From Agelas oroides (Eukaryota > Porifera > Demospongiae > Agelasida > Agelasidae), in NCBI GenBank assembly GCA_949130485.1, contig OX422185.1:4529928-4593927 (forward strand): a stretch of 64,000 bases of DNA, written 5' to 3'. Below are positions 3,016 to 61,590 of this stretch, in pieces. The first letter of the stretch is position 1. Every line of letters starts with the position of its first letter. The position numbers and the translations under genes are program-made. The notes beneath the pieces are model-generated. The model made no database searches and had not been told where the DNA came from. It saw nothing but the letters and a program-made list of their open reading frames with translations.

Positions 3016-3055
3016 GCCCCTAAAGATTAATGTTAAATAACTATATGTGTACACA

Positions 3056-3216
3056 TAGACCTAGCAAACCAGGTCCTCCAAAAAATTTCGAACGCTGCAA
3101 AACTGAAATCCTGGATCTCTGGCTCAGATACCTTACAGCAACTGTCCTTATATACCCTGGCTTGTTCCTAACACTTGTGGAAGGAAAGTGTAGACTATTC
3201 ATTGAGTTATGAATAA
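3056..3216 (-). ncRNA. Sm-class snRNA-like element
   Basis: The palindrome lies at 3196-3215, CCACAAGTGTTAGGAAC at about 3162-3180, TATATAA at about 3148-3154 and the Sm-like AAATTTTTTGG at about 3079-3088. The 3' hairpin is at about 3057-3076. The body begins CTGTAAGGTATCTGAGCC and can fold on itself through ATCT/AGAT. Confidence 0.6.
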
Positions 3217-5192: not shown

Positions 5193-5345
5193 TAGACCTA
5201 GTTACACTAGGTCTTCCAAACATTTTTCAATTCGAGTCACCCCAGAACTGCATAAAACCTAAGCTAGCCTCCAACAGCTGTCCTTATATACTCGGCTCAT
5301 TCCTAACACTTGTGGGTACAGTATCTATGAATACTGTTAGTCAGG
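5193..5345 (-). ncRNA. Sm-class snRNA-like element
   Basis: The hairpin has perfect 9-bp arms AGACCTAGT/ACTAGGTCT (5194-5213). The Sm region reads AAAAATGTTTGG, a departure from consensus. TATATAA is at about 5284-5290 and CCCACAAGTGTTAGGAA at about 5298-5317. The upstream palindrome is partly lost. The body is unrelated to that of neighbouring copies. Confidence 0.55.
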
Positions 5346-6814: not shown

Positions 6815-7012
6815 TGTAGACCTAGTAGGACTAGGTCTTCCAAAAATTCTATTCATATTCATCATGAAAACAGCAAAGACCAACTGAGAAACGTGCAGAA
6901 CCTTTCACCACCTGTCTTTATATACCCTGGCGTGTTCCTAACACTTGTGGGTTTTGTGTGACGTCTTGTTAGATATTCATTGAGCTATGAATAATGTTAG
7001 CCAGGGTAATTA
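6815..7012 (-). ncRNA. Sm-class snRNA-like element (type copy)
   Basis: This is the clearest class-1 copy. In RNA sense it has a palindrome of ATTCAT and ATGAAT (about 6974-6993), GACGTCA-like sequence, CCCACAAGTGTTAGGAAC (about 6934-6953) and TATATAAA (6918-6925). A variable body of about 65 nt follows, then AATTTTTGG (6842-6850) and directly a hairpin with perfect 9-bp arms AGACCTAGT/ACTAGGTCT and a CCT loop (6818-6838). The order enhancer-like palindrome, PSE-like block, TATA, RNA, Sm site and 3' stem-loop is that of Sm-class snRNA or spliced-leader genes. It could instead be a transposon mimicking that layout. Transcription is unproven. Confidence 0.65.
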
Positions 7013-7750: not shown

Positions 7751-7755
7751 ATTAT

Positions 7756-7905
7756 GTAGACCCAGAAACTAGGTCTTCCAAAAATTTCCCAAGTACAGTG
7801 GGGAAGCAAAACAGATTGATGAGACTGTAATGATGTTTTCAGCAGCTGTCTTTATATACCCTGGACTGTTCCTAACACTTGTGGGTTTGTGTGATGTCAT
7901 GTACA
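7756..7905 (-). ncRNA. Sm-class snRNA-like element
   Basis: Hairpin arms AGACCTAG/CTGGGTCT (7758-7776), AAATTTTTGG (about 7779-7787), TATATAAA (7851-7858) and CCCACAAGTGTTAGGAAC (about 7868-7886). A TGACATCA site is present, but the distal palindrome is missing. The body shares CAGCTGCTG just after the TATA box with other copies and is otherwise distinct. Confidence 0.6.
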
Positions 7906-8695: not shown

Positions 8696-9138
8696 TGTAC
8701 AAAGCTACCATACAAGCTACCGTGTACATGTGTTTGTTAGATGTTGCTTAGCAACCAAAATTTTGTACTTGAATAACACAGAGTAGAATGGGTGGAGGTG
8801 ATTATGGGTGTGGCAGTGGGTTGCTAGGGGTAACATCTAACAAATAAGTTACATTCCCCAGACAGAACAGCATTCGCCCTTCGGGCTCATGCTGCTCCGT
8901 CTGGGGAATGTAACTATTATGTACAAAGCTACCATACAAGCTACCGTGTACATGTGTGTACAAAGCTACCATACAAGCTACCGTGTACATGTGTGTACAA
9001 AGCTACCATACAAGCTACCGTGTACATGTGTGTACAAAGCTACCATACAAGCTACCGTGTACATGTGTGTACAAAGCTACCATACAAGCTACCGTGTACA
9101 TGTGTGTACAAAGCTACCATACAAGCTACCGTGTACAT
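8696..9138. repeat. 37-bp minisatellite, first block with duplicated flank
   Basis: There is one unit at about 8696-8729, an intervening flank at 8730-8920, then six 37-bp units. The unit contains ACAAAGCTACCATACAAGC and TACCGTGTACATGTGTGT. The flank has a strong hairpin: TTACATTCCCCAGAC near 8848 is inverted at GTCTGGGGAATGTAA near 8898, enclosing CGCCCTTCGGGC. Confidence 0.92.
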
Positions 9139-10408
9139 GTGTTTGTTAGATGTTGCTTAGCAACCAAAATTTTGTACTTGAATAACACAGAGTAGAATGG
9201 GTGGAGGTGATTATGGGTGTGGCAGTGGGTTGCTAGGGGTAACATCTAACAAATAAGTTACATTCCCCAGACAGAACAGCATTCGCCCTTCGGGCTCATG
9301 CTGCTCCGTCTGGGGAATGTAACTATTATGTACAAAGCTACCATACAAGCTACCGTGTACATGTGTGTACAAAGCTACCATACAAGCTACCGTGTACATG
9401 TGTGTACAAAGCTACCATACAAGCTACCGTGTACATGTGTGTACAAAGCTACCATACAAGCTACCGTGTACATGTGTGTACAAAGCTACCATACAAGCTA
9501 CCGTGTACATGTGTGTACAAAGCTACCATACAAGCTACCGTGTACATGTGTGTACAAAGCTACCATTCAAGCTACCGTGTACAAAGCTACCATACAAGCT
9601 ACCGTGTACATGTGTGTACAAAGCTACCATTCAAGCTACCGTGTACATGTGTGTACAAAGCTACCATACAAGCTACCGTGTACATGTGTGTACAAAGCTA
9701 CCATACAAGCTACCGTGTACATGTGTGTACAAAGCTACCATACAAGCTACCGTGTACATGTGTGTACAAAGCTACCATACAAGCTACCGTGTACATGTGT
9801 GTACAAAGCTACCATACAAGCTACCGTGTACATGTGTGTACAAAGCTACCATACAAGCTACCGTGTACATGCGTGTACAAAGCTACCATACAAGCTACCG
9901 TGTACATGTGTGTACAAAGCTACCATACAAGCTACCGTGTACATGTGTGTACAAAGCTACCATACAAGCTACCGTGTACATGTGTGTACAAAGCTACCAT
10001 ACAAGCTACCGTGTACATGTGTGTACAAAGCTACCATTCAAGCTACCGTGTACATGTGTGTACAAAGCTACCATACAAGCTACCGTGTACATGTGTGTAC
10101 AAAGCTACCATACAAGCTACCGTGTACATGTGTGTACAAAGCTACCATACAAGCTACCGTGTACATGTGTGTACAAAGCTACCATACAAGCTACCGTGTA
10201 CATGCGTGTACAAAGCTACCATACAAGCTACCGTGTACATGCGTGTACAAAGCTACCATACAAGCTACCGTGTACATGCGTGTACAAAGCTACCATACAA
10301 GCTACCGTGTACATGTGTGTACAAAGCTACCATTCAAGCTACCGTGTACATGTGTGTACAAAGCTACCATACAAGCTACCGTGTACATGTGCGTAAAAAG
10401 CTACCATA
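9139..10408. repeat. 37-bp minisatellite, main block (about 29 units)
   Basis: The flank with its hairpin is repeated exactly 409 bp downstream (9139-9329). It is followed by about 29 units of the 37-bp repeat, with scattered ATTCAAGC and GCGTGT variants and one shortened unit near 9583. Because 37 is not a multiple of 3 and the unit lacks stops, all three forward frames stay open (343-371 codons). These are not proteins. Confidence 0.95.
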
Positions 10409-11317
10409 CCTAACAATTTCCAAAATGCTGAATTAGTTTCCATTCCACCTAACAAGAAAAGTGTTTCACTGAGTTCCTAGCCCTGTGTGAGGTGTGTGTG
10501 TGTGTATGTGTGTGCATGTGTGTGTGTGTGTGCATGGATGTGTGTGTGTATAGCAATAAGCACTTTCTCCCAGTTAGAATGAGAATGCCAATTACAAACA
10601 TACAATACCCCAGCCCTCACACACCTCCCTCCATTTCACTCTCTTCTCCACTCTCCCCCCTCGACTAAGAAGACACAAGAGTAAGTGTGCAGTCGTCTCT
10701 TGACTAGCAATTCACAATATATCCAAGCTATTAGCAAATACTTTCTCCTACTAAATAAAATCACTGTGCTCATGTATAAAAACAAGATATTCACATAAAC
10801 AACAGTGTGCAACTTTTTAAGCAGCAATGAACATATAGACCCAGTAAACCGGGTGCCCCTGTCCCACTCTTTCTGCTAGTGCAGAACCTATCTTCAAAAC
10901 AGATTGCACCAACTGATAACATGTGGCCAAAATCAGATGACGCCAAAAAGCATCACCAGTGGTTAAAGGGTTAACTTAAACCCAATAGTACACTTTTGAT
11001 AACGTTATACTGCACAGAAAAGATAGTCTCTATGCGCTGGCGTCAGCAGAAAGGGGTGGAACAGGGGGAGAGGTGGGTGAGGTCACAGTAGGGTGGTGTG
11101 TACATGGCAGCTGCTAGGCTTGGCTGTAAAAGCAGCATGGTTGGCCCTGGGTTGGCCAGTTTTCGACCTGGCTGCATGTGCAGGCCTAGAAAATGCTACC
11201 TTTCTGAAATAGTTGACAACTTCTCTGGAGTAGAAAATCAGGACTGTGTGCCTGATCAATCCTCTGTCGAGGCTAAGTGCACGCTGACAACATCTGCGTG
11301 TATTGTGTGAGTGTGTG

Positions 11318-11360
<43 letters not shown>

Positions 11361-11380
11361 TTAACTAAAGGTGTAAAATA
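10409..11380. other. repeat-derived, no gene
   Basis: A short TG tract lies at 10493-10550 in the same repeat context as 18320-18545 and 27105-27302. The segment at about 11090-11185 is inverted relative to about 44715-44790. A TG tract occupies 11315-11359. A 70-codon frame at 11098-11310 has no recognisable feature. Confidence 0.5.
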
Positions 11381-11381
11381 C

Positions 11382-11530
11382 AGGCCCACACACTAAGTGA
11401 GGAGCCTTCCAAAAATTTCATTTCAAGCCTAAATTTGAGTGGGATTTGCTTTTTTGCTTTTATACTCCTCCACTGTACCATTCACTTGTGGGTTTGGGTG
11501 AAAATATATTCATTGACTATGAATAATCTA
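11382..11530 (-). ncRNA. Sm-class snRNA-like element, variant hairpin
   Basis: Palindrome ATTCATAGTCAATGAAT (about 11508-11525), CCCACAAGTG (about 11484-11494), TATAAAA (about 11458-11464), AAATTTTTGG (11409-11418), and a GC-rich 3' stem made of GGCTCC, CAC, GTG and GGGCC segments (11383-11406). The hairpin sequence differs entirely from class 1 while keeping the position. Confidence 0.55.
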
Positions 11531-13080: not shown

Positions 13081-13252
13081 TAGCCCACTGTCTACTCCAG
13101 AGGAGTGGGGCCTCAAAAATTTTGAGCTTTTCCTCACAAGCTTATGTAGTGACTTGTACATTCAAGCACTACCTGCATACAGCTGCTTATATACCCAGCC
13201 TGTGTACGAACCACTTGTGGGTTTGGCCAGTATTCATGGCACAATGAATACA
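13081..13252 (-). ncRNA. Sm-class snRNA-like element, class-2 hairpin
   Basis: Palindrome ATTCATTG..CATGAAT (about 13230-13249), CCCACAAGTGGTTCG, TATATAAG (about 13188-13194), AAAATTTTTGAG (13113-13123), and a compound stem: outer GCCC/GGGC, inner ACTCC/GGAGT around a TCT loop (13082-13112). The body has ATGCAGGTAGTGCTTG. It is nearly identical to 31219-31389. Confidence 0.6.
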
Positions 13253-14176: not shown

Positions 14177-14346
14177 ATTCATTGTGTCATGAATATTGCT
14201 CAAAACCCATAATTGTCTTGTACAGAGGTGAGGTATAAAAGGCAGGAGTGTGGGGAGATCTGTGGTCCTGGATTTGTCTCTATATCTCCTTTCAACAGGA
14301 AAATTTTTGGAGCCCAAGTACTCCTCTGGAGTAGTCAGTGGGCTAT
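14177..14346 (+). ncRNA. Sm-class snRNA-like element, class-2 hairpin, plus strand
   Basis: Palindrome ATTCATTGTGTCATGAAT (14178-14195), CCCATAATTGTC, TATAAAA (14234-14240), a body with GGAGAT/ATCTCC pairing, AAAATTTTTGG (14300-14310), and a stem with TACTCC/GGAGTA inner arms and GCCCA/TGGGC outer arms (14311-14344). It is one of only three plus-strand copies. Confidence 0.62.
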
Positions 14347-16740: not shown

Positions 16741-16932
16741 TAGTATATAAGACCCTAGAGGGTCTTCCAATAATTGTCCTATGAATATTGTTAGCTAGGG
16801 TAATTGTACTGTGAACTCGCATACAACCCAGCCGTTTTTATAAACCCTGGCCTGTTCGTAACACTTGTGGGTTTTGTGTGACGTCACGTAATAGATATTC
16901 ATTGTGCTATGAATACAGTTAGCCAGGATAAT
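16741..16932 (-). ncRNA. Sm-class snRNA-like element, chimeric body
   Basis: Palindrome (about 16895-16914), TGACGTCA, CCCACAAGTGTTACGAAC, TTTATAAA (about 16838-16844), an AATTATTGG Sm variant (about 16767-16776), and a perfect 8-bp hairpin AAGACCCT/AGGGTCTT (16749-16766). The body contains a piece (about 16779-16806) resembling the upstream promoter flank of other copies, suggesting recombination between two elements. Confidence 0.55.
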
Positions 16933-18655: not shown

Positions 18656-18875
18656 TATGGCAATCAGCACTTGCAATGAGAATGCTAATTATGCACACAG
18701 AATAGCCCAGCCCTCACACACCTCCCTCCACTTCCTTGTCTTCCCCCTCTCCCCCTCAACCAAGCCCGCATATAAGTGAGTGTACAGTTTTCTCCTTCAG
18801 GACTAGCAATTCACAAAACATTAATAACATTACTTGTGCATAAACACAACATACACAAAAAAACCATAAGGCATA

Positions 18876-19050
18876 TAGACCCAGTATACCAGGTCTTCCA
18901 AAAAATTCATCAATTGCAGTAGAACAATTAGGAGAAGATAGTTCAGCCTGATGTTAGTAGCACAGCAGCTGTCCTTATATATCCAGGCCAGTTCCTAACA
19001 CTTGTGGGTTTGTGTGATGAACATGTACCATTGATATATGAATACTGTTA
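18876..19050 (-). ncRNA. Sm-class snRNA-like element
   Basis: CCCACAAGTGTTAGGAAC (about 18990-19008), TATATAAGG (about 18974-18981), AATTTTTTGG (about 18898-18906) and hairpin arms AGACCTGGT/ACTGGGTCT with two G-U pairs (18877-18896). The distal palindrome is decayed. The body starts CAGCTGCTGTGCTAC. Confidence 0.6.
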
Positions 19051-20044: not shown

Positions 20045-22530
20045 ACCAACTTATTTCTGGCAAGATAAGAACTGTGACCCAACAGTGTGTCGCTACAGGA
20101 CCCAGCAATTAACTTAAGAACTGTGACCTCAACCAACAGTGTGTCGCTACAGGACCCAGCAATTAACTTAAGAACTGTGACCTCAACCAACAGTATGTCG
20201 CTACAGGAGCCAGCAAGTTAAGAACTGTGACCTCAACCAACAGTACGTCGCTACAGGAGCCAGCAAGTTAAGAACTGTGACCTCAACCAACAGTGTGTCG
20301 CTACAGGACCCAGCAATTAACTTAAGAACTGTGACCTCAACCAACAGTGTGTCGCTATAGGAGCCAGCAAGTTACGAAGTGTGACCTCAACCAACAGTGT
20401 GTCGCTATAGGAGCCAGCAAGTTAAGAACTGTGACCTCAACCAACAGTGTGTCGCTACAGGACCCAGCAATTAACTTAAGAACTGTGACCTCAACCAACA
20501 GTATGTCGCTACAGGAGCCAGCAAGTTAAGAACTGTGACCTCAACCAACAGTACGTCGCTACAGGAGCCAGCAAGTTAAGAACTGTGACCTCAACCAACA
20601 GTGTGTCGCTACAGGACCCAGCAATTAACTTAAGAACTGTGACCTCAACCAACAGTGTGTTGCTATAGGAGCCAGCAAGTTACGAAGTGTGACCTCAACC
20701 AACAGTGTGTCGCTATAGGAGCCAGCAAGTTACGAACTGTGACCTCAACCAACAGTGTGTCGCTACAGGACCCAGCAAGTTAAGAACTGTGACCTCAACC
20801 AACAGTAAGTTAAGAACTGTGACCTCAACCAACAGTACGCCGCTACAGGAGCCAGCAAGTTAAGAACTGTGACCTCAACCAACAGTGTGTCACTACAGGA
20901 CCCAGCAATTAACTTAAGAACTGTGACCTCAACCAACAGTGTGTCGCTATAGGAGCCAGCAAGTTACGAAGTGTGACCTCAACCAACAGTGTGTCGCTAT
21001 AGGAGCCAGCAAGTTACGAACTGTGACCTCAACCAACAGTGTGTCGCTACAGGAGCCAGCAAGTTAAGAACTGTGACCTCAACCAACAGTGTGTCACTAC
21101 AGGACCCAGCAAGTTAAGAACTGTGACCTCAACCAACAGTGTGTCGCTACAGGAGCCAGCAAGTTACGAACTGTGACCTCAACCAACAGTATGTCGCTAC
21201 AGCAGCCAGCAAGTTACGAACTGTGACCTCAACAAACAGTGTGTCGCTACAGCAGCCAGCAAGTTACGAACTGTGACCTCGACCAACAGTGTGTCGCTAC
21301 AGGACCCAGCAAGTTATGAACTGTGACCTCAACAAACAGTGTGTCGCTACAGCAGCCAGCAAGTTACGAACTGTGACCTCGACCAACAGTGTGTCGCTAC
21401 AGGACCCAGCAAGTTATGAACTGTGACCTCAACAAACAGTGTGTCGCTACAGCAGCCAGCAAGTTACGAACTGTGACCTCGACCAACAGTGTGTCGCTAC
21501 AGGAGCCAGCAAGTTATGAACTGTGACCTCAACAAACAGTGTGTCGCTACAGGAGCCAGCAATTAAGTTAAGAACTGTGACCTCAACCAACAGTGTGTCA
21601 CTATAGGAGCCAGCAAGTTACGAACTGTGACCTCAACCAACAGTGTTTCGCTACAGGAGCCAGCAATTAAGTTAAGAACTGTGACCTCAACCAACAGTAT
21701 TTCACTACAGGAGCCAGCAAGTTACGAACTGTGACCTCAACCAACAGTATTTCACTACAGGAGCCAGCAAGTTACGAACTGTGACCTCTACCAACAGTGT
21801 GTCGCTACAGGAGCCAGCAAGTTAAGAACTGTGACCTCAACCAACAGTGTTTCGCTACAGGACCCAGCAAGTTACAAACTGTGACCTCGACCAACAGTGT
21901 GTCGCTACAGGACCCAGCAAGTTATGAACTGTGACCTCAACAAACAGTGTGTCGCTACAGGAGCCAGCAATTAAGTTAAGAACTGTGACCTCAACCAACA
22001 GTGTGTCACTATAGTAGCCAGCAAGTTATGAACTGTGACCTCAACCAACAGTGTTTCGCTACAGGAGCCAGCAATTAAGTTAAGAACTGTGACCTCAACC
22101 AACAGTATTTCACTACAGGAGCCAGCAAGTTACGAACTGTGACCTCTACCAACAGTGTGTCGCTACAGGACCCAGCAAGTTAAGAACTGTGACCTCGACC
22201 AACAGTGTGTCGCTACAGCAGCCAGCAAGTTACAAACTGTGACCTGAACCAACAGTGTGTCACTACAGGAGCCAGCAAGTTACGAAGTGTGACCTCAACC
22301 AACAGTGTGTTGCTACAGGAGCCAGCAAGTTACGAAGTGTGACCTCAACCAACAGTGTGTTGCTACAGGAGCTAGCAAGTTACGAAGTGTGACCTCAACC
22401 AACAGTGTGTTGCTACAGGAGCTAGCAAGTTACGAACTGTGACCTCAACCAACAGTGTTTTGTTACAGGAGCTAGCAAGTTACGAACTGTGACCTCAACC
22501 AACAGTGTTTTGTTACAGGAGCTAGCAAGG
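20045..22530. repeat. 50-bp minisatellite, about 49 units
   Basis: The unit is the same as at 2553-2860. Lengths alternate between 50 and 57 bp, the longer form having AATTAACTTAAGAACTG. Variant blocks repeat as groups, for example GACCAACAG with AACAAACAG units near 21275-21540, so higher-order amplification has occurred. It lies between repeat G (left) and an snRNA-like pair (right), in the same position as the smaller array. Confidence 0.95.
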
Positions 22531-22700: not shown

Positions 22701-22723
22701 AAGGTGAACGTTAAATAACTACA

Positions 22724-22912
22724 TAGACCCAGCAAAGCAGGTCTTCCAAAAATTTTCTGCAAACAAGAGAAGTTTTAGACTGGTGCTTCAAGGATACCTT
22801 AACAGTAGCTGTTCTTATATACCCAGGCTTGTTCCTAACAATTGTGGGTTTTGTGGGTTTTGTGGGTTTTGTGCGCCGAATATGTGCAGTATTCATTGAT
22901 CTATGAATACTG
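22724..22912 (-). ncRNA. Sm-class snRNA-like element
   Basis: Palindrome ATTCATAGATCAATGAAT (about 22891-22908), CCCACAATTGTTAGGAAC with upstream AAAACCCAC present three times in tandem (22843-22872), TATATAAG (about 22814-22820), AAAATTTTTGG (22747-22756), hairpin AGACCTG/CTGGGTCT (22725-22744). The body nearly matches 1724-1900. Confidence 0.62.
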
Positions 22913-23834: not shown

Positions 23835-24520
23835 CTAATGTTCTACATTCCCCAAGTACTAATATAAAACTAGTGTAAATGTAGAACATTGTGGGGCGAG
23901 CCTGAGCAAGCAACGGAGAGCAGTATCATTCGGCTTGCTAAGGTGGGGCAGTTATGGCAAAGTGAGTTACTGTTTTGGGGAATGTGCTCAAAAAAATGCT
24001 GGTCAGGGGAATACCCTATCCGGTCATCGCATGACCACAGGTTTCGGTCCTTTGAACTCCAGACCTATAAATATCCTCCTGCACCAAGTTGTCTTCCAAC
24101 GGACCTTTTTACCTGAGGAGAATAACAACCAACCAACACAAGTGGCTTTGTGCCTGGCAAGTTAGCAGTTGTGATCTCAACCAACAGTGTGTCACTACAG
24201 CACCCAGCAAGAGGTTTCACTACATGTGTGTACGCTTAGTCTCGTTCCCACACCCAAGCTCGGTACACACAGGAGAGTCAGGTACACACATGCTAGCATT
24301 GATATTGAAGTTAGCTAAGCCTGTCCGCTGAGCTTCAGTAAACTGGAGTGTGCAAGTAGGTCTGCAAAGGTGTGATGAGTAAAGGTAAGTGCTGTGGTCA
24401 GATGACCAGTACCTCCGAAACGCCAAATACATAACCAGGCCACTTTCTGCACGCCTATACCATACTGATGGTCTGGGAACCAGATCATACCCGGATAAAC
24501 CAAGGTCTTCCAAAAATGGG
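23835..24520 (+). repeat. composite repeat G, copy with empty site
   Basis: It corresponds to 51645-52130 plus 52805-52980. It includes AACATTGTGGGGCGAGCCTG, GCATGACCACAGGTTTCGG, CTATAAATATCCTCC, CTGAGGAGAATAACAACC and a CCAACAGTGTGTCAC segment. At 24293-24315 it gives the uninterrupted form of the site where a 675-bp element sits at 52130. Confidence 0.8.
24488..24517 (-). pseudogene. snRNA-like element remnant
   Basis: Only the 3' hairpin and Sm-like site remain (AAGGTCTTCCAAAAAT on the plus strand). A truncated foldback starts immediately afterwards and has removed the rest. Confidence 0.5.
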
Positions 24521-26417: not shown

Positions 26418-26586
26418 ATAGACCAAGCAAAGCAGGTCTTCCAAAAATTTTCACGTTTCACGTTTTCCAACATACATCTGGCTCAAAGATACCTTACAGC
26501 AGCTGCCTTTATATGCCCTGGCTTGTTCCTAAAACTTGTGGGTTTGTGTGACGAAAGAGTAAAGTATTCATTGAGCTATGAATAAA
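26418..26586 (-). ncRNA. Sm-class snRNA-like element
   Basis: Palindrome ATTCATAGCTCAATGAAT (about 26565-26583), CCCACAAGTTTTAGGAAC, an altered TATA (CATATAAAG, about 26508-26515), a CTGTAAGGTATCTTTGAGCC body, AAAATTTTTGG (26442-26451), and hairpin arms AGACC/GGTCT with a larger loop (26420-26439). Confidence 0.58.
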
Positions 26587-28839: not shown

Positions 28840-29640
28840 GCATACAAAATCATGGCACCATTTTGAAGTTTCAACTTGGCTACACAACAAAAACTAGTCA
28901 CAGTAACTAACTCCTGACTCGAGGATACTTCACAGCTACTGTGTGATCTTCACATGAGTGACATTTGAGGTTACCATACCTTAGCATTGAGTCGTGTGAA
29001 TCTATACAAGGCACCTCCTCCTAATCTGGATCGAGTCAGGGAACAAGGCTAGGTATGCATAGAGGGTAGGCATGGGGTGCATAGGATGCATAGGGTGCAT
29101 AGGGTGCATAGGGGCATACACACACACACACACACAAACACATCAGGGGATGTAACTATAGACCCATATAAAAATGGGCCTTCCAAAAATTTCAACTCTA
29201 TGCTGTGTTCGACCCTGCTGTAGGTGACAAGGTTCTCAATCTCTTTATATACCCAGGCTTGTTCCTAACACTTGTGGGTTTTATGTGACGTCATGAGGTA
29301 GTATATTCATTGACAGTTTGAGATATTCATTGACATTGCGGATTATGAATCTACTTATCAGTCAGGCTGAGGGTAGCAGGCTCTCCAATGCACCCAATGA
29401 GCAATAAGGGGAGGAAGAGCCTGGTATGAATTCACACGTAGTATGGTGGCATCAGAGCATTGTTAATGTTGTGATAATTCACGTATGCTGACATCAACTA
29501 AAATAATACTGCTTGAAGACAGTGAGCTGCTGTGAGATTTAGCTATGACTCAAACAGCAATGACGACAGAACGTTAACTGGTGTGTTTGTCTATTTACTG
29601 TTAAGATGTTCCATTATGTACTGTTGATTGAGCGACTATG
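28840..29640. repeat. long repeat L, copy 1
   Basis: It matches 57262-58265 and parts of 47340-47890 and 57035-57240. It includes CTTCACATGAGTGAC, CACCTCCTCCTAATC-type sequence, an snRNA-like copy, GAGCCTGGTA, ACAATTCACGTATGCTGAC and TTTGTCTATTTACTGTTA. It is non-coding, and each fuller copy includes one snRNA-like element. Confidence 0.8.
29158..29350 (-). ncRNA. Sm-class snRNA-like element, CCCAT-hairpin subclass
   Basis: Two ATTCAT motifs upstream, TGACGTCA, CCCACAAGTGTTAGGAAC, TATATAAAG (about 29243-29250), AAATTTTTGG (29183-29192), hairpin arms AGGCCCAT/ATGGGTCT (29160-29181). Compared with class 1 the stem has changed on both sides, keeping pairing. A CA tract lies about 20 bp beyond the hairpin (29117-29141). 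Confidence 0.62.
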
Positions 29641-31218: not shown

Positions 31219-31389
31219 TAGCCCACTGTCTACTCCAGAGGAGTGGGGCCTCAAAAATTTTGAGCTTTTCCTCACAAGCTTATATAGTGACTTGTACATT
31301 CAAGCACTACCTGCATACAGCTGCTTATATACCTGGTCTGTGTCCGAACCACTAGTGGGTTTAGGTCAGTATTCATGGCACAATGAATT
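31219..31389 (-). ncRNA. Sm-class snRNA-like element, class-2 hairpin
   Basis: Duplicate of 13081-13252: the same hairpin (31220-31251), AAAATTTTTGAG, TATATAAG (about 31324-31330) and ATTCATTGTGCCATGAAT. Confidence 0.6.
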
Positions 31390-32522: not shown

Positions 32523-32683
32523 ATTCATTGTGTAATGAATATTGCTCAAAACCCACAATTGTCTTACACAGAGGTGAAATATAAAAGACAGCAGTGTGGG
32601 GAGAGTTGTGGTCCAGGATTTGTCTCCATATCTCCTGTCATCAGGAAAATTTTTGGAGTCCACTGGAGTAGTCAGTGGGCTAT
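32523..32683 (+). ncRNA. Sm-class snRNA-like element, plus strand
   Basis: Duplicate of 14177-14346 with a shorter 3' stem. Palindrome ATTCATTGTGTAATGAAT, CCCACAATTGTC, TATAAAAG (about 32580-32586), AAAATTTTTGG (32646-32656), and stem ending CAGTGGGCTA. A deletion has removed the ACTCCTCTGG part of the hairpin. Confidence 0.55.
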
Positions 32684-33029: not shown

Positions 33030-34110
33030 CACATGGTGCATGTACATGCACATGGTGCACACACACATGGTGCACACATACATGGTCCACACACACATGG
33101 TCCACACACACATGGTCCACACATACATGGTGCATATACACATGGTCCACACACACATGGTCCACACACACATGGTCCACACATACATGGTGCACACACA
33201 CATGGTCCACACACACATGGTGCACACACACATGGTCCACACACACATGGTGCATACACACATGGTCCACACACACATGGTCCACACACACATGGTGCAT
33301 ACACACATGGTCCACACACACATGGTCCACACACACATGGTCCACACACACATGGTCCACACACACATGGTGCACACACACATGGTCCACACACACATGG
33401 TGCATACACACATGGTGCATATACACATGGTCCACACACACATGGTCCACACACACATGGTCCACACACACATGGTCCACACACACATGGTGCATACACA
33501 CATGGTCCACACACACATGGTCCACACACACATGGTCCACACACACATGGTCCACACATACATGGTGCACACACACATGGTGCATATACACATGGTCCAC
33601 ACACACATGGTGCACACACACATGGTCCACACATACATGGTCCACACACACATGGTGCACACACACATGGTGCACACACACATGGTCCACACACACATGG
33701 TGCATATACACATGGTCCACACACACATGGTCCACACATACATGGTGCATATACACATGGTCCACACATACATGGTGCATATACACATGGTGCATACACA
33801 CATGGTGCACACACACATGGTCCACACACACATGGTGCATATACACATGGTCCACACACACATGGTCCACACATACATGGTGCATATACACATGGTCCAC
33901 ACACACATGGTGCATATACACATGGTCCACACATACATGGTGCATATACACATGGTGCATACACACATGGTGCACACACACATGGTCCACACACACATGG
34001 TGCATATACACATGGTCCACACACACATGGTCCACACATACATGGTGCATATACACATGGTCCACACACACATGGTGCATATACACATGGTGCATACACA
34101 CATGGTGCAT
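33030..34110. repeat. 15-bp minisatellite, about 72 units
   Basis: The unit is CATGGTSCAYAYACA (15 bp). Because 15 is a multiple of 3, several frames on both strands stay open (360-443 codons) as five-residue repeats such as HTHGP. These are not proteins. Toward the right, a block containing GGTGCATATACACATGG variants recurs three times at spacings of about 135 and 165 bp. Confidence 0.95.
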
Positions 34111-34154: not shown

Positions 34155-34356
34155 TTAATGAATAGCACTAACTGTCAATGAATATCACTAACTGTCAATG
34201 AATATTTTGTCACATGCTGGCACACAAAACCCACAAGTGTTAGGAACAAAGCCAGAGTATATACAGACAGATGGTGAGCAGTTAAACATTCCAGCCAGTG
34301 GTGATGTATTGAAGATCAAAAACAATTTTTGGAAGACCTAGTCCTACTAGGTCTAC
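34155..34356 (+). ncRNA. Sm-class snRNA-like element, plus strand, perfect hairpin
   Basis: Repeated AATGAATA motifs upstream, CCCACAAGTGTTAGGAAC (about 34230-34247), TATATAC (about 34258-34264), a body with CCAGCCAGTGGTGATGTATTG, AATTTTTGG (34324-34332), and hairpin arms AGACCTAGT/ACTAGGTCT with a CCT loop (34333-34353). It is the same 3' end as 6815-7012 in opposite orientation, including about 20 bp beyond the hairpin. Confidence 0.66.
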
Positions 34357-36704: not shown

Positions 36705-36880
36705 ATAGACCTAGATAATAGTCCAGCTCTTCCAAAAATTAGTCCAGAGACTGACAGACAAGCCTTTGACGAGAGACACATAGAGTGCAGCAGCTGCTCT
36801 TATATAGTCAGGTTTGTTCCCAACACTTGTGGGTTTTGTGTGACGTCATATAAGATATTCATTGAACTATGAATCTTGTT
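36705..36880 (-). ncRNA. Sm-class snRNA-like element
   Basis: Palindrome ATTCATAGTTCAATGAAT (about 36857-36874), TGACGTCA, CCCACAAGTGTTGGGAAC, TATATAAG (about 36799-36806), AATTTTTGG (36732-36740). The hairpin is weaker (AGAGCTGG against CTAGGTCT, 36707-36730). Confidence 0.58.
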
Positions 36881-40197: not shown

Positions 40198-40820
40198 GTC
40201 CAAAACTTTTGGCTGTCTATTACAGGTGGTAGTATATAGACTCCAGAGGGTCTTCCAAAAATTGTGCTAAGAATACATATTGCAAGTCTAATTAAACTTT
40301 ACTGCGAACTCACATACAAACCAGCCGTTCTTATAAACCCTGGCCTGTTCCTAACACTTGTGGGTTTTGTGTGACGTCACGTAATAGATATTCATTGTGC
40401 TATGAATACAGTTAGCCAGGATAATTAGGTTTCACTGCTTGTGAGGAGTGTGTGTATACATGTGTGTGTGTGTGTGTGTGTTTCTGCATGCTATGGACAT
40501 ATTACCATCTATTCGTGACAGATAATTTTGACACTAAATGCTACATTTTCCGTAGATTTATTAATGCGGCGGGCATATGGTGTTCACTTGATCGTGTGCA
40601 TCTAGCAGCCAATTTAAACGGAACTGTGAACTCCTGTGGAATCGGTTGATAAGAAAAGGGACTACATACCGGTAAAACAATCACAAGAGGTAACCTGGCA
40701 TTCCATTGTACTTCTGTCTTCTTTTTCTGCTGACGCTCTTCACTGGTAAACAGCACAAGACTGTTTTCCAAAGGTGCCAAGGTAAGTGCTATTCGGACTA
40801 GTTATAGGTAGGCACATCGA
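40198..40820. repeat. segmental duplication, copy 2 (partner 16698-17345)
   Basis: The same order as the first copy, with a shorter TG tract (40448-40482). Confidence 0.85.
40234..40428 (-). ncRNA. Sm-class snRNA-like element
   Basis: Palindrome ATTCATAGCACAATGAAT (about 40389-40407), TGACGTCA, CCCACAAGTGTTAGGAAC, TTATAAG (about 40330-40337), CAATTTTTGG (40255-40264), hairpin AGACC/GGAGTCT type (40237-40253). Its Sm site is consensus where the duplicate at 16741 has ATTATTGG. Confidence 0.6.
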
Positions 40821-44095: not shown

Positions 44096-44120
44096 TTAAT
44101 GGTCCATCAACTACAAACTA

Positions 44121-44310
44121 GCAGACCTAGTAAATAAGGTCTTCCAAAAATTCTCTTAATCAAGAGGGATATATGAGTGACAAAACTACTGCCATTCTCC
44201 CCCCAGCTGCTCTTAAATACCCAGGCTTGTTCCTAACAGTTGTGGGTTTTGCGTGACGTCAGTGTAGAGTATTCATTGCACCATGAATATTGGCAGCCTG
44301 GCTAATTAAG
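44121..44310 (-). ncRNA. Sm-class snRNA-like element
   Basis: Palindrome ATTCATGGTGCAATGAAT (about 44270-44288), TGACGTCA, CCCACAACTGTTAGGAAC, TATTTAAG (about 44213-44219), AATTTTTGG (44145-44153), hairpin AGACCT/AGGTCT (44124-44142). The upstream flank GCTTAATTAGCCAGGC is shared with 49622 and 53388. Confidence 0.62.
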
Positions 44311-47345: not shown

Positions 47346-47361
47346 CAAGTGGGGGATAAAA

Positions 47362-47572
47362 ATAGACCCAGGCACATAAAAATGGGTCTTCCAAAAATTT
47401 TAAGTCAGTGTGTACAACACACTGGTGGCTAACGGAGACTCGATTCCCAATTCTTGAACGATCTTTATATACCCTGGCTCGTTCCTAACACTTGTGGGTT
47501 TGTGTGATTTCATGAGGTAGAATATTCATTGACAGTTTGAAATATTCATTGATAGTGTGGGGTCATGAATCT
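47362..47572 (-). ncRNA. Sm-class snRNA-like element, CCCA-hairpin subclass
   Basis: Two ATTCAT motifs, CCCACAAGTGTTAGGAAC, TATATAAAG (47464-47471), AAAATTTTTGG (47391-47400), hairpin arms AGACCCA/TGGGTCT (47364-47389). The body includes CAGTGTG/CACACTG pairing just 5' of the Sm site. Confidence 0.62.
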
Positions 47573-49380: not shown

Positions 49381-49621
49381 TAGTCGCATCCCCAGACCCT
49401 TAATTGGTACAATACATGGGCACAGGAGAGGAGGGTCCAGTGGACGTAAGGACATAATCCCACAATAAGCTAGAATTGACACTAAAGCTAAGCCTGGGAT
49501 TCGGTAAATTAAAGTGCATAAGTAGGTCTGCAAAGGTGTGGTGAGTAAAACTAAGCTATGTGATCATATCCTAACCTACACTGATGGTCTGGGAACCGGA
49601 CTGGTGCACACTACTCACAGA

Positions 49622-49807
49622 TTAGACCCGGATATCAGGTCTTCCAAAAATTTAACGTCTCAAATGCCCAAGTTTGAGCTCTCAAGCTGCCTTCGCACTT
49701 GGCTGCCCTTATATACCCTGGCTTGTTCCTAACAGTTGTGGGTTTTGCGTGACGTCAGTGTAGAGTATTCGTTGAGCTATGAATATTGGCAGTCTGGCTA
49801 ATTAAGC
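49622..49807 (-). ncRNA. Sm-class snRNA-like element
   Basis: Palindrome ATTCATAGCTCAACGAAT (about 49767-49785), TGACGTCA, CCCACAACTGTTAGGAAC, TATATAAGGGCAGCC (TATA about 49709-49715), AAATTTTTGG (49645-49653), hairpin AGACCTG/CGGGTCT (49624-49642). The body can form a TTGAGAGCTCAA stem. Confidence 0.62.
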
Positions 49808-53383: not shown

Positions 53384-53387
53384 AGTT

Positions 53388-53590
53388 CAGACCCGGATAA
53401 ACCGAGGTCTTCCAAAAATTTGACGTCTTGAATAGACGTCCTCTATCCGAGCTCAAATAGCCCTCTCATGACAATCGCTAAAGCGATCGGCTGCCCTTAT
53501 ATACTCTGGCTTGTACCTAACAGTTATGGGTTTTGCGGGACGTGTAGAGTATTCATTGAACTATGAATATTGATAGCCTGGCTAATTAAC
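53388..53590 (-). ncRNA. Sm-class snRNA-like element, long body
   Basis: Palindrome ATTCATAGTTCAATGAAT (about 53550-53567), CCCATAACTGTTAGGTAC, TATATAAGGGCAGCC (TATA about 53498-53504), AAATTTTTGG (53412-53421), hairpin AGACCT/GGGTCT (53389-53410). The body of about 80 nt can form TCGCTTTAGCGA and GACGTC...GACGTC stems. Confidence 0.6.
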
Positions 53591-53799: not shown

Positions 53800-54305
53800 G
53801 ACGAACGCAGAACACAAGGTAAACATGATGGGGAGAACTGGTCTCATTATCGTGTGAATGACATCAGGTGAACGCAGAACACAAGGTAAACAAGATGGGG
53901 AGAACTGGTCTCATTATCGTGTGAACGACATCAGGTGAACGCAGAACACAAGGTAAACAAGATGGGGAGAACTGGTCTCATTATCGTGTGAATGACATCA
54001 GGTGAACGCAGAACACAAGGTAAACAAGATGGGGAGAACTGGTCTCATTATCACGTGAATGACATCAGGTGAACGCAGAACACAAGGTAAACAAGATGGG
54101 GAGAACTGGTCTCATTATCACGTGAATGACATCAGGTGAACGCAGAACACAAGGTAAACAAGATGGGGAGAACTGGTCTCATTATCGTGTGAATGACATC
54201 AGGTGAACGCAGAACACAAGGTAAACAAGATGGGGAGAACTGGTCTCATTATCGTGTGAATGACATCAGGTGAACGCAGAACACAAGGTAAACATGATGG
54301 GGAGA
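53800..54305. repeat. 67-bp minisatellite, about 7.5 units
   Basis: Units contain GGTGAACGCAGAACACAAGG, TAAACAAGATGGGGAGAAC and TGGTCTCATTATCGTGTG, with AATGACATCA at the join. Starts at 53867, 53934, 54001, 54068, 54135, 54202 and 54269 give an exact 67-bp period. Confidence 0.95.
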
Positions 54306-55778: not shown

Positions 55779-55828
55779 TGTAAACCCACATAAAAATGGG
55801 CCTTCCAAAAATTCTAACTTCGCACTAG
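55779..55828 (-). pseudogene. snRNA-like element remnant, CCCAT-hairpin subclass
   Basis: Hairpin (55783-55804) and AATTTTTGG (55806-55814) remain. A short foldback (55833-55880) has replaced the rest. Confidence 0.55.
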
Positions 55829-56016
55829 CTAGAGTAGTCTCGTTCCCAGACCCTCCTCCAAAGAGGAAAGGAGGGTCTGGCGAATATAGTACAACATCAC
55901 ACTATGGGCTAGCTGTGGACCATACCGCAATGTGTACATAGTGATGCATTAATTAAGTGGGCATGGGTGTCAAGTAAGTGTTTACAGCCGCACCTACATC
56001 ACGTGTACTATTGACT

Positions 56017-56580
56017 ATGGCTACTGCGGCCGGTGGTCTCAAGAAGAACACAGAACCTTGCCATTTATGCAGGCGTGCTATACACGACAGCAGGAACCGG
56101 AGAACGCTGGGCTCCAGAACGTCTGAGTGCACTACTACTGCTATAGACGGTGTGTGTTCTGAGCTCGGACGATGCAGAAACGACTTCGAGCTGCGGTCAG
56201 TGTGCAAGCCATGTTTCCAGGACCTTGAGGGTTTGGGCAAGGCAGAGGCGAAGGTTGCGCTACTAAGGGCACGTTTTCTTGGTTTTCTGCGGCCGAGAGC
56301 ATCAATCGGCTTATCTCCAAGTCCTGCTAAGCGGACGGCTAGCGGCTCCCCCATCGGGGTTACACCGACCCGTCCTGGCCGCAAGCCAGCAAAGCGCATA
56401 GCCAGCGATTCTCCCATCGCAACAGGCGGTACCCCGAGTGCTCGGTCTCCAGCGCGCAAGAAGCCCTTGCTGATCCAACAGAAAGATTTTCCACTGCCAG
56501 TTGGCAACGACACGAATACATCCTGTCCTCTCAAAAATTCTCTCGCTGCTTCCAGCTGCTCGTCTCGAACATCCGGATAA
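56017..56580 (+). CDS. ZAD-like zinc-binding protein, unnamed
   Basis: From ATG at 56017 the frame gives 187 residues. The start is preferred to in-frame codons further left because it is the first ATG. The first half has CHLC near residue 16, a cysteine-bearing middle, and VCKPCFQDLEGLGKAEAKV near residue 69. Paired CxxC about 55 residues apart with a following amphipathic helix resembles the zinc-finger-associated (ZAD) treble-clef fold of transcription factors. The second half is basic and Ser/Pro-rich with the near-repeat KRTASGSPI and KRIASDSPI, suggesting a nuclear tail. The last 33 codons are antisense to the RecQ-like exon, so the true end may be a splice site near 56470-56510. The family assignment is tentative. 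No C2H2 fingers or DNA-binding domain follow. Confidence 0.5.
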   Translation: MATAAGGLKKNTEPCHLCRRAIHDSRNRRTLGSRTSECTTTAIDGVCSELGRCRNDFELRSVCKPCFQDLEGLGKAEAKVALLRARFLGFLRPRASIGLSPSPAKRTASGSPIGVTPTRPGRKPAKRIASDSPIATGGTPSARSPARKKPLLIQQKDFPLPVGNDTNTSCPLKNSLAASSCSSRTSG

Positions 56581-56648
56581 CCGAGTCGTCCAAAAGCCTC
56601 TCTCACTGCAGACTCAATCTCCGACACACTCCACTCTCTGCTCGCCAT
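56481..56648 (-). CDS. RecQ-like ATP-dependent helicase, N-terminal coding fragment
   Basis: ATG at 56646-56648 opens MASREWSVSEIESAVREAFG then RLGYPDVRDEQLEAAREFLR and GQDVFVSLPTGSGKSF. This has the RecQ motif 0 region (glycine, then the conserved glutamine at residue 31) and a Walker A motif (TGSGKS, residues 50-55). Family members of 400 or more residues continue with motifs Ia to VI. Here similarity stops just after the lysine-serine, and the frame to 55953 is the antisense of the ZAD-like ORF. Either an intron begins here or the gene is cut. No downstream exon with a DEAH box is visible on the minus strand in the window. Confidence 0.6.
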
Positions 56649-56697
56649 TTTTTTTCGGCCGTTGACACAACACGTGCGATAATTAAGAGGGTGTTAT

Positions 56698-56729
56698 CAT
56701 AGATAATAGAGTCGACTCTATTATCTATG
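56698..56729. promoter_or_regulatory. 32-bp perfect palindrome upstream of the RecQ-like start
   Basis: Arms CATAGATAATAGA and TCTATTATCTATG meet at GTCGAC, about 50 bp upstream of the helicase ATG. It could form a cruciform or be a dimeric factor site. A miniature inverted-repeat relic is an alternative. Confidence 0.5.
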
Positions 56730-56891
56730 GTGTTATATAAACGGTAGGTGTCTGACCAATCAAATCGCTCCGCCGAAATTCCGCGGAGGTACAACAATCT
56801 TGTACTATATTCACCAGACCCCCCTTTCCTCTTGGAGTGTTGAAGGGGGGTCTGGGGACGAGACTATAGCTAGAGATACTCACTCTGGTCC

Positions 56892-57026
56892 AGGACTAGG
56901 TTCCAACTCTTTTTACAGCCTTTATAAACCCTGGCTTGTTCCTAACACTTGTGGGTTTGTGTGACGTCATGAGACAGAATATTCATTGACAGTTTAAAAT
57001 ATTCATTGTTAGTGAGGATTATGAAT
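56892..57026 (-). ncRNA. snRNA-like element, promoter kept, 3' end lost
   Basis: Repeated ATTCAT motifs, TGACGTCA, CCCACAAGTGTTAGGAAC and TTTATAAAG (about 56920-56927) are intact. The hairpin and Sm-like site are missing, replaced by GGTCCAGGACTAGG-type sequence. Confidence 0.45.
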
Positions 57027-57034
57027 GTAGTTAT

Positions 57035-58270
57035 CAGTCAGGCTCTCCTATGCAATGAAGAAATAAGGGGAGGGAGAGCCTGGTAGAATTCACATGTAAT
57101 ACTGACATCAGCTGAAGACAGTGAGCTTTGACTGCTTCTGTGAGATTTTGCCATGGCAACAGAGAAAGTTTACTGGTGTGCAGATAAGACTTTGTCTGTT
57201 GACTGTGTTCCATTATGAAAAACTTATTTAACAAGGTTGTGAAGAAAGAATTTGTCAGTTAGCATAGCACTCTGGTATACAAAATCTTAGTGTTGTCTCA
57301 ACTTGGCTACACAACAGAAACTAGCCACAATAGCTTCTGACTCAAAGATACTTCTCAGCTACTGTGTTGTCTTCACATGAGTGACACTTCAGGTTACATG
57401 ATGATACCTTAGCATTGGATCTTGTGAATCCCTATGAGGCTCTCTCTCTCCTAATTTTTTATCAGGGTGCACGTGGGGGGGTTAGTCAGGCAGCTGGGTC
57501 CAGTCAAGGAATAAGGCTAGGTATGCATAGGGGTACACACACACACACTCACAGCAAAAGGGATGTAATTATAGACCCACATAAAAACGGGCCTTCCAAA
57601 AATTATAACAAAGTTTTCACAAGCACTTTCCTGGGACCTATATTGATGCAACCTTTATATACCCTGGCGTGTTCCTAACACTTGTGGGTTTTGTGTGACG
57701 TCATGAGGTAGAATATTCATTGACAGTTTGAAATATTCATTGTCAGTGTGGATCATGAATCTAGTTATCAGTCAGACTGAGGCAGATAGTACACAGGCTC
57801 ATCAAATCAGCAATCGAAAACTGGTGCTGGAGAAGGCCTGGGAACATATAGTTTCCCCAACAGGAAGTGTGTTTCAGAAACAAAGGGTAGGGTATAGGGT
57901 CGGGCAGGGATTTACTTCCGGTTTGTTTCAGAAACATTGCGTGGGAGGCTATAGGTCGCGGTACACTTAGTTCTCCAACTTAGTTGCTAAAATGAGGCTA
58001 CTCCTCTACACCCAATGAACAATAAGGGGAGGGAGAGCCTGGTAGGGGTCCACACATTGTGTCACAGCATGATGACATCACAGCATTAATTGCTAATGTT
58101 GCGACAATTCACGTATGCTGACATAGGCTAAAATAATATTACTTGAAGACAGTGTGCTTCTGTGAGATTTAGCTATGGTTCAAACAGCAATGATGACAAA
58201 GAAAGTTACCTGGTGTGTAGGTAAGACTCTGTCTATTTACTGTTACGATGTTCCATTATGAAAAACTTAT
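57035..58270. repeat. long repeat L, one partial and one fuller copy
   Basis: 57035-57240 is a shortened copy of the GAGAGCCTGGTA to TTTGTCT segment. 57241-58265 is a fuller copy comparable with 28384-29640, including an uninterrupted TAGCACTCTGGTATACAAA site, an snRNA-like element, and the distal ACAATTCACGTATGCTGAC segment. An extra insert of about 200 bp (57800-58010) separates promoter and distal part. Confidence 0.75.
57571..57762 (-). ncRNA. Sm-class snRNA-like element, CCCAT-hairpin subclass
   Basis: Two ATTCAT motifs, TGACGTCA, CCCACAAGTGTTAGGAAC, TATATAAAGG (57653-57661), AATTTTTGG (57597-57604), hairpin AGGCCC..GTGGGTCT (57573-57594). The body is short (about 48 nt) and shares no obvious sequence with the related copies at 29158 or 47362. 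Confidence 0.62.
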
Positions 58271-61400: not shown

Positions 61401-61590
61401 GTAGACCTCATAAATAACAAGGTCTTCCAAAAAATGTTCTGTAAGTCTTCCTTGGAATCTGTGATGGTCAATCACTCCACAACCCCACCAAGACCCACGC
61501 TTGTTCCTAACACTTGTGGGTTTTGTGTGCCGGCATGCAGTAAAATATTCATTGACAATACAAGATATTCATTGAGCTATGAATCTAGTT
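61401..61590 (-). ncRNA. snRNA-like element without TATA
   Basis: Palindrome ATTCATAGCTCAATGAAT (about 61567-61585), CCCACAAGTGTTAGGAAC and the AGACC/GGTCT hairpin (61403-61425) are kept, and the Sm-like run reads ATTTTTTGG. The TATA position reads GGGTCTTGG, so this copy is probably dead. Confidence 0.45.

Follow-up and report, generated by a model that had tools for sequence, protein, structure and literature searches.

What is the element that recurs along this stretch of contig C3? We refer to the whole 64,000 nucleotides (bases 4,529,928–4,593,927, in an assembly of 259 Mb and 141 contigs) as the window. Its sequence repeats a module with a constant order of parts: an ATTCAT/ATGAAT element, in many copies a GACGTCA, then the block CCCACAAGTGTTAGGAAC, which resembles a proximal sequence element (PSE), TATATAA, a variable stretch (the body hereafter), the Sm site AATTTTTGG, and a hairpin. 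With three or fewer mismatches, the block is found at 20 places in the window, against 0.04 expected from shuffles, and the exact Sm site is found 25 times, against 0.87 expected. Judged from their sequence, these modules are very probably RNA polymerase II (Pol II) genes of the small nuclear RNA (snRNA) type, belonging to the Sm class.

Complete modules number 25 in the window by each of two counts, which differ by one weak member, the first including 1675− and the second 26380−, and 22 of the 25 lie on the minus strand. Besides these, one split gene, one module without a TATA box and one promoterless relic of an Sm site with its hairpin were found. The preliminary description had reported about 34 such elements; the recurrence stands, with a fixed geometry, while the number was too high. 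Each of the 15 copies it had named coincides with a module, and its placing of one copy at 6815–7012 was right, the copy lying on the minus strand. In this copy, an inverted repeat ATTCAT..ATGAAT with GACGTCA, which may act like a distal sequence element, occupies 6960–7000; the exact PSE-like block occupies 6934–6951; TATATAA is at 6918–6924, its distance from the first base of the block being 27 bp; the predicted RNA has its variable, unconserved 5′ domain at 6849–6895, the start being put at PSE+56 from the analogy with U1; the Sm site is at 6840–6848; and the terminal hairpin AGACCTAGT-CCT-ACTAGGTCT, which belongs to a covarying set and scores 46.1 bits with R1, our covariance model of the hairpin, is at 6818–6838. 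When 76 PSE matches were parsed, 67 passed as modules, and in these the distance between the first C of the block and the start of the TATA box is 27 bp in 59 cases, 28 bp in 6 and 26 bp in 2, the parser having sought it only at +25 to +38.

The comparison with the ordinary snRNA genes of the same genome carries most of the argument. The genome holds 19 matches to U1 (17 above the cut-off) and 10 to U5. Three features are shared with the modules. One is the block itself, which was found in all 8 U1 loci and all 6 U5 loci that were read, with 2–6 of its 18 bases different. Another is the spacing: a TATA-like box lies at block +27 or +28 in 13 of the 14 loci, one U1 copy having TGTAAAA there. 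The last is ATGAATA, which occurs within 150 bp upstream in 12 of the 14. Since the same block and TATA spacing serve both U1 and U5, the block is regarded as the snRNA promoter element of this organism. The U1 match begins at block+57, and the Sm site of U1 is likewise AATTTTTGG, followed by the end hairpin of U1. That the modules are Sm-class RNA genes had earlier been proposed from the order of parts alone, and the promoter shared with U1 and U5 supports it. At the U6 loci L009 and L011, a related block, CCCATACTTA, stands 32 bp before the TATA box, as compared with 26–28 bp in the modules, so that the module promoter differs by this distance from the RNA polymerase III (Pol III) promoter of these two loci; the third U6 match, L010, has no such block. 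ATTCAT is also present upstream of U6. In general appearance, U1, U5 and U6 of this genome look like those of animals. The difference between 32 bp (L009, 1401–1607; L011, 1281–1570) and 26–28 bp may represent a spacing rule separating Pol III from Pol II genes. A run of five T stops Pol III; the Sm site contains such a run, and Pol II therefore fits. As for position, 12 of the 19 U1 matches are on C14 (the region of 5.55–5.63 Mb) and 5 of the 10 U5 matches are at C16:0.04–0.21 Mb, which indicates loose clusters of the ordinary snRNA genes as well.

The other end of the module points in the same direction: as in Sm-class RNAs, a canonical Sm site stands directly 5′ of a terminal hairpin, and this hairpin covaries. 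In an alignment of 38 hairpins (A4), which comprised 36 of 54 distinct segments, hand-picked without the degenerate ones, and two segments of another hairpin type, 96.2% of the cells pair, as compared with at most 53.4% when the alignment is slid; double changes occur in 5 of the 8 pairs, and 31 double-changed cells were counted against 7.0 ± 2.0 in shuffles. Because A4 was hand-picked and relatedness inflates the counts of double changes, a test in which arms were swapped among all 67 modules is fairer, although it also ignores the tree: the modules' own arms score 1067, against 897 ± 18 and a maximum of 977 in 10,000 shuffles. In 19 of the 67 hairpins the arms do better than 95% of their swaps; the others have common arms. 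One part of the refutation named in the preliminary description was that hairpin pairs covary no more than in shuffled alignments; in both analyses they covary more. With R1, 21 of the 25 window modules were recovered at E < 0.01, and the remaining four are of a long-hairpin type; nine of the 38 rows of A4 come from the window, so that those matches hold by construction. At least three hairpin types exist, namely GACCYRG, GGCTCC and the long GGCCC..GTGGGC (13221−, 31359−, 14206+ and 32552+). All share the promoter layout and the Sm site, and the block differs by 4–6 bases in the GGCTCC and long types.

The modules extend beyond the window. Genome-wide, the block with two or fewer mismatches has 312 matches against 37 for the reversed pattern. 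The 312 would include two of the U5 genes read, both of which are within two mismatches. A strict pattern (the block, 70–100 bases and TTTTTGGAAGRCC) has 83 matches against none for its reverse, and the exact Sm site with the hairpin start, AATTTTTGGAAGRCC, has 179 against none. There are at least 74 exact blocks, with further ones past 5.0 Mb on C3; a TATA box and an Sm site are both present at 42 of the 48 that were read irrespective of the downstream sequence (31 chosen on the block alone, 10 from the window and 7 from a 200-kb stretch). From these counts, the family probably comprises a few hundred genes. As to location, the 4.12–5.35 Mb region of C3 holds 65 of the 83 strict modules, and the other 18 are on C1, C2, C3, C5, C6, C8, C10, C11, C21 and C43. 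Two arrangements among the dispersed and clustered copies may be recorded here. On C5, one module is present as two inverted pairs (286562+ and 287558−, 292531+ and 293527−), and an identical body also occurs at C5:859956. On C3, the copies at 4237920 (L026) and 4130664 (L016) share 1.55 kb at 95.6% identity, which ends at block+51, adjoining the predicted start; this junction of promoter and body may be either the end of a duplication or a point of exchange.

Numerous copies, some of them dispersed over other contigs and some broken (56955−, 61520−, L003, L065 and L074), are also what would be expected if the module were a mobile repeat, such as a miniature inverted-repeat transposable element or a short interspersed element, that carries an snRNA promoter and is dead in most copies. 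On the three features that were compared, we consider this very improbable: the parts belonging to an snRNA gene are conserved while the inside is not, the reverse of what a spreading repeat shows; two recent pairs are homologous over 1.5 and 2.6 kb, beyond the limits of the module, as in segment duplication; and the hairpin shows compensatory changes. The earlier suggestion that the window had been seeded by Sm-class RNA genes, if taken to mean a mobile element, finds no support in these features. Clusters of tiny genes with an snRNA-derived promoter motif also follow the genomic logic of the PIWI-interacting RNA (piRNA) loci of nematodes, and one may ask whether the modules are a system of that kind, in which snRNA-type promoters yield short precursors and only the 5′ end is used. 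The primary transcripts of C. elegans piRNAs are about 28 nt (PMC6436959, in excerpt) and so would be too short to include an Sm site and a hairpin, both of which are kept in the modules; such a system is therefore improbable here.

We next consider the body, which extends from block+56 to the Sm site and measures 19–60 nt (median 40), giving a predicted RNA of about 75 nt. No fold was detected in it (mean z −0.10, with 2 of 66 bodies below −2). Spliced-leader (SL) RNAs with many different leaders, such as those nematodes that have large SL sets possess, each RNA donating its 5′ end to mRNAs, would match the modules in size, Sm site and gene order, and the likeness in order, already pointed out in the preliminary description, holds to that extent. 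In the SL gene model used by SLIDR, a leader is followed by a GT donor, an Sm site and stem-loops, and repertoires of several SLs do exist, 15 being given for Trichinella spiralis (both PMC7986045, in excerpt). The bodies, however, show no constant position for a GT, none being shared by more than 12 of 64, and the inner part of 7 of the 66 has no GT at all. The best splice-donor score of the bodies is 3.89, against 4.12 ± 0.13 in shuffles, and GTRAG occurs 7 times against 8.5 expected, so neither exceeds shuffles. An SL identity was rejected on the absence of a donor GT at a set place, and many-leader SL RNAs are quite improbable.

How the body changes from gene to gene was examined in two ways. 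In a conservation profile of 31 modules, taken from 43 that were left after two spurious ones had been dropped from 45, the block and TATA box reach 1.2–2.0 bits and the Sm site with the 5′ arm of the hairpin 1.0–2.0 bits, while the body does not exceed 0.49. The second analysis used 18 homologous pairs, which were picked from 2211 by flank similarity, near-identical pairs being excluded. In means per 10 bases, identity is 0.93–0.98 from the block to the TATA box and 0.92–0.93 from the Sm site to Sm+39, after which it falls to 0.75; the flanks give 0.66–0.91, and the 40 bases ahead of the Sm site 0.61–0.64. In 16 of the 18 pairs the body is less alike than the flanks are on average (in one of these 0.69 against 0.70), and in 8 pairs it ranks with the lowest 5% of flank windows; 7 of these 8 belong to one subfamily (loci L052–L055 and L057). 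Within this subfamily, leaving aside the near-identical pair L052/L057, the 5′ flanks are at 0.63–0.89, the promoter is at 0.96–1.00 and the body is at 0.45–0.58, unrelated sequence being expected to give 0.506 ± 0.054; a milder counting of gaps in the 18-pair comparison raises some of these body values, to a range of 0.45–0.73.

The chief competing explanation is that only the Sm core and the hairpin matter, for example in the storage or recycling of Sm proteins or in a structural role, and that the 5′ domain is drifting filler, perhaps changing faster because transcribed DNA mutates more. This is possible but doubtful. It agrees with a body that has neither a fold nor a donor and only a weak excess of words, and drift would account for the lost similarity of the bodies; moreover, 34230+ and 6951− differ in the body about as much as in the flanks (the 0.69 and 0.70 just mentioned), and two pairs have bodies above their flanks. 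Against it, in five pairs, all of one subfamily, the body is as low as 0.48–0.58, which is what unrelated sequence gives, although the 5′ flanks are still at 0.84–0.89. The DNA just 3′ of the hairpin, which is also transcribed in snRNA genes, stays alike, and some bodies are strongly kept: that of 13221− and 31359− is identical at 0.98, with flanks at 0.63–0.76. Weighing these, we think it likely, on the evidence of sequence comparison, that the modules form an Sm-class gene class with an exposed and variable 5′ arm.

Several points weigh against this reading. The U1 and U5 loci are partly close copies of one another (U1 on C14) and so are not 14 independent cases, though U1 and U5 are separate gene families. 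The start of the RNA was placed by analogy with U1. Most of the evidence that the body changes faster comes from one subfamily, which supplies 11 of the 18 pairs and two of whose members are near-identical, and the size of the effect depends on how gaps are counted, the body of L052/L053 being at 0.48 or 0.73. Besides 13221−/31359−, the body is kept as well as the flanks in 22848−/1854−, it is common to three copies at C3:4906387, 4912288 and 4989419, and it is also kept in the pair C3:4143090/4240895; not all genes are hypervariable, therefore, and some look fixed. Finally, no partner of the bodies emerged. Their pairing scores with U1 (9.19 against 8.92 ± 0.18), U5 (8.34 against 8.26 ± 0.15) and U6 (8.06 against 7.88 ± 0.16) are within 1.5 standard deviations of shuffles, without clear excess; the counts of 14–18-mers in this test include self matches and hence are uninformative. 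A genome search with 53 joined bodies gave no target, its 42 rows being 38 own genes and 4 duplicates of one; this search was incomplete, in that 15 bodies did not recover themselves, 40 of 59 candidate places were scored and short matches were invisible to it.

Other searches with the bodies gave little more. Against 323 kb outside the modules, the only matches of 15 bases or more were a 16-mer of L001 and a repeated upstream element in 16871−. Shuffling of bodies between modules was not seen: only 4 pairs among the 66 bodies share 14 or more consecutive bases (50, 23, 17 and 16), and all are known relatives. The word excess includes TGCTTG and CTTGAA, each found in 7 bodies (1.1 and 1.4 expected, respectively), some of which are related. 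Repeats of 7 or more bases inside the bodies are direct in 9 of 66 and inverted in 7, against 3.7 and 1.9 expected; since the largest shuffle values, 9 and 7, equal the observed counts, this signal is weak.

Taken together, the modules demonstrably carry, as far as sequence can demonstrate it, the organism's own snRNA promoter (PSE and TATA box), an Sm site, a covarying hairpin, a footprint of selection and a variable arm. A mechanism may be proposed from these parts. Factors of the SNAPc type would initiate transcription at about PSE+56, producing the RNA of the length given above; seven Sm proteins would assemble on AAUUUUUGG, and the cap would be converted to trimethylguanosine; the terminal hairpin would shield the 3′ end. 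As the stretch 5′ of the Sm site has no structure and in most cases varies among the genes, the resulting particle would resemble that of U7 snRNA in offering a free arm, here a variable one. We tentatively hold it quite possible that the arm serves a guide role, its likeliest use being sequence-specific pairing with other RNAs. Each gene's arm would then pair with an RNA target of its own, and the repertoire would have expanded as genes were duplicated locally and their arms changed quickly. A wider proposal, which we regard as speculative and rather unlikely as a whole, is that the family is an expanding, genome-encoded repertoire of Sm-core guide ribonucleoproteins in an animal-type genome: a few hundred separately promoted RNAs, whose arms change faster than their surroundings under pressure to keep up with RNA targets that themselves change (such as splice sites or the transcripts of transposons or viruses), in effect an Sm-based counterpart to piRNA clusters.

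To our knowledge, Sm-class RNAs are small families with conserved working parts. No family like the present one was found in open-access papers, subscription papers and preprints being outside the scope of the search. Engineered U7 is a programmable platform in the laboratory; if the reading of a large family with a kept promoter, Sm core and hairpin and a changing arm is true, the snRNP (small nuclear ribonucleoprotein) scaffold would be such a platform in nature. The genes would also form a clean set for testing: from the promoter that they share with U1 and U5 one would predict that they are expressed, and from their arms, which RNAs they target.

The remaining modules of the window are as follows, each being supported by R1 and by the module count unless stated otherwise. 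On the minus strand, complete modules are located at 1723–1854, 3055–3181, 5193–5316 (with the Sm site AATGTTTGG), 7755–7885, 11380–11492 (with the GGCTCC hairpin), 16744–16871 (with the Sm site AATTATTGG), 18875–19008, 22723–22848, 26418–26542, 29158–29278, 36705–36833, 40232–40364, 44120–44246, 47361–47498, 49621–49742, 53387–53530 and 57571–57688; one further complete module, at 34230–34356, is on the plus strand. Two minus-strand modules have a weak PSE: that at 1540–1675 matches at 14 of 18 bases, has TATGTAA and was found by R1 at E 0.0058, and that at 2884–3012 matches at 13 of 18. The four long-hairpin modules, which we call subclass B, were identified by the module count: 13083–13221 (minus), with the hairpin GGCCCC..GTGGGCT and a conserved body, was missed by R1 (E 7.6); 31220–31359 (minus), whose body is 98% identical to that of 13221−, has E 3.9; and 14206–14342 and 32552–32680, both on the plus strand, have E 0.091 and 0.095, respectively. 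In 16871− (16775–16871), the 3′ part of the body (CTAACAATATTCATAG) is so similar to the upstream element of this gene family that it might be a copy of it.

Three incomplete members, all on the minus strand, were also located. The module at 55780–56955 appears to be interrupted between the body and the Sm site by an insert of about 1 kb, the PSE and TATA box being at 56955− and the Sm site and hairpin at 55813−. The insert holds a helicase-like reading frame (55953–56648) with 25 protein matches, several of them with PF00270, and a related body is found unsplit at C3:4668968. The module at 61404–61520, which was recovered by the block parse, R1 and the module count, has an exact PSE, an Sm site and a hairpin and is probably dead, the TATA box being absent. 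The relic at 24480–24518, an Sm site and hairpin without a PSE, was found by R1 (E 0.0053) and by the module count. The window also contains long tandem arrays at 8920–10409, 20079–22529, 33049–34109 and 53803–54305, with units of 37, 50, 30/45 and 67 bases; the first and third of these yield long meaningless reading frames, and the 50-base unit is found again at 2558–2860.

How do the modules compare with known systems? At the gathering score, Rfam gives no match in the window, U1 and U5 included; at E up to 10 it gives 64, of which many are microRNA models on repeats and three are weak matches to SmY on modules. Among the nearest systems are the U1 and U5 genes of the same genome, which share the PSE block, the TATA spacing and, in most loci, ATGAATA, U1 also having the Sm site followed by an end hairpin; unlike them, the modules are shorter and their bodies differ from gene to gene. 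U7 snRNA is an RNA of about 60–70 nt in which a free 5′ antisense arm precedes the Sm site and a terminal hairpin, and this layout is that of the modules; U7, however, has a single sequence with a special Sm site and a conserved anti-histone arm. A U7 identity was set aside on these grounds, the modules having the canonical AATTTTTGG and many arms. In Drosophila, the orphan Sm-class RNA LU (Like-U) snRNA is known, like the modules, by an snRNA promoter, an Sm site and covarying stems (PMC4053861, in excerpt), whereas the modules number at least 179 exact Sm-hairpin sites and have variable arms. SmY (RF01844) is likewise a small Sm-class family, and the three matches to it score 24.7, 21.3 and 20.5 bits, below the gathering score of 39. 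As excerpts of PMC11229312 describe it, the Sm site of SmY is flanked by two stem-loops, of which the first is extensively conserved in sequence, and C. elegans has 12 SmY genes; the modules differ in that their 5′ part is unstructured and variable and contains no conserved first stem-loop. SL RNAs resemble the modules in being multi-copy and in carrying the Sm site ahead of a stem-loop (PMC7986045, in excerpt), and differ from them in the conserved leader and the donor. The piRNA loci of C. elegans, in turn, form clusters of 2.5 and 3.7 Mb, each locus with a motif derived from an snRNA promoter (PMC6436959, in excerpt), and thus share with the modules the megabase cluster, the tiny genes, the origin of the promoter and a sequence of its own in each gene; those loci number more than 15,000 as motif-dependent loci (PMC7917550, in excerpt), whereas the modules, a few hundred at most as counted here, retain an Sm site and a terminal hairpin.
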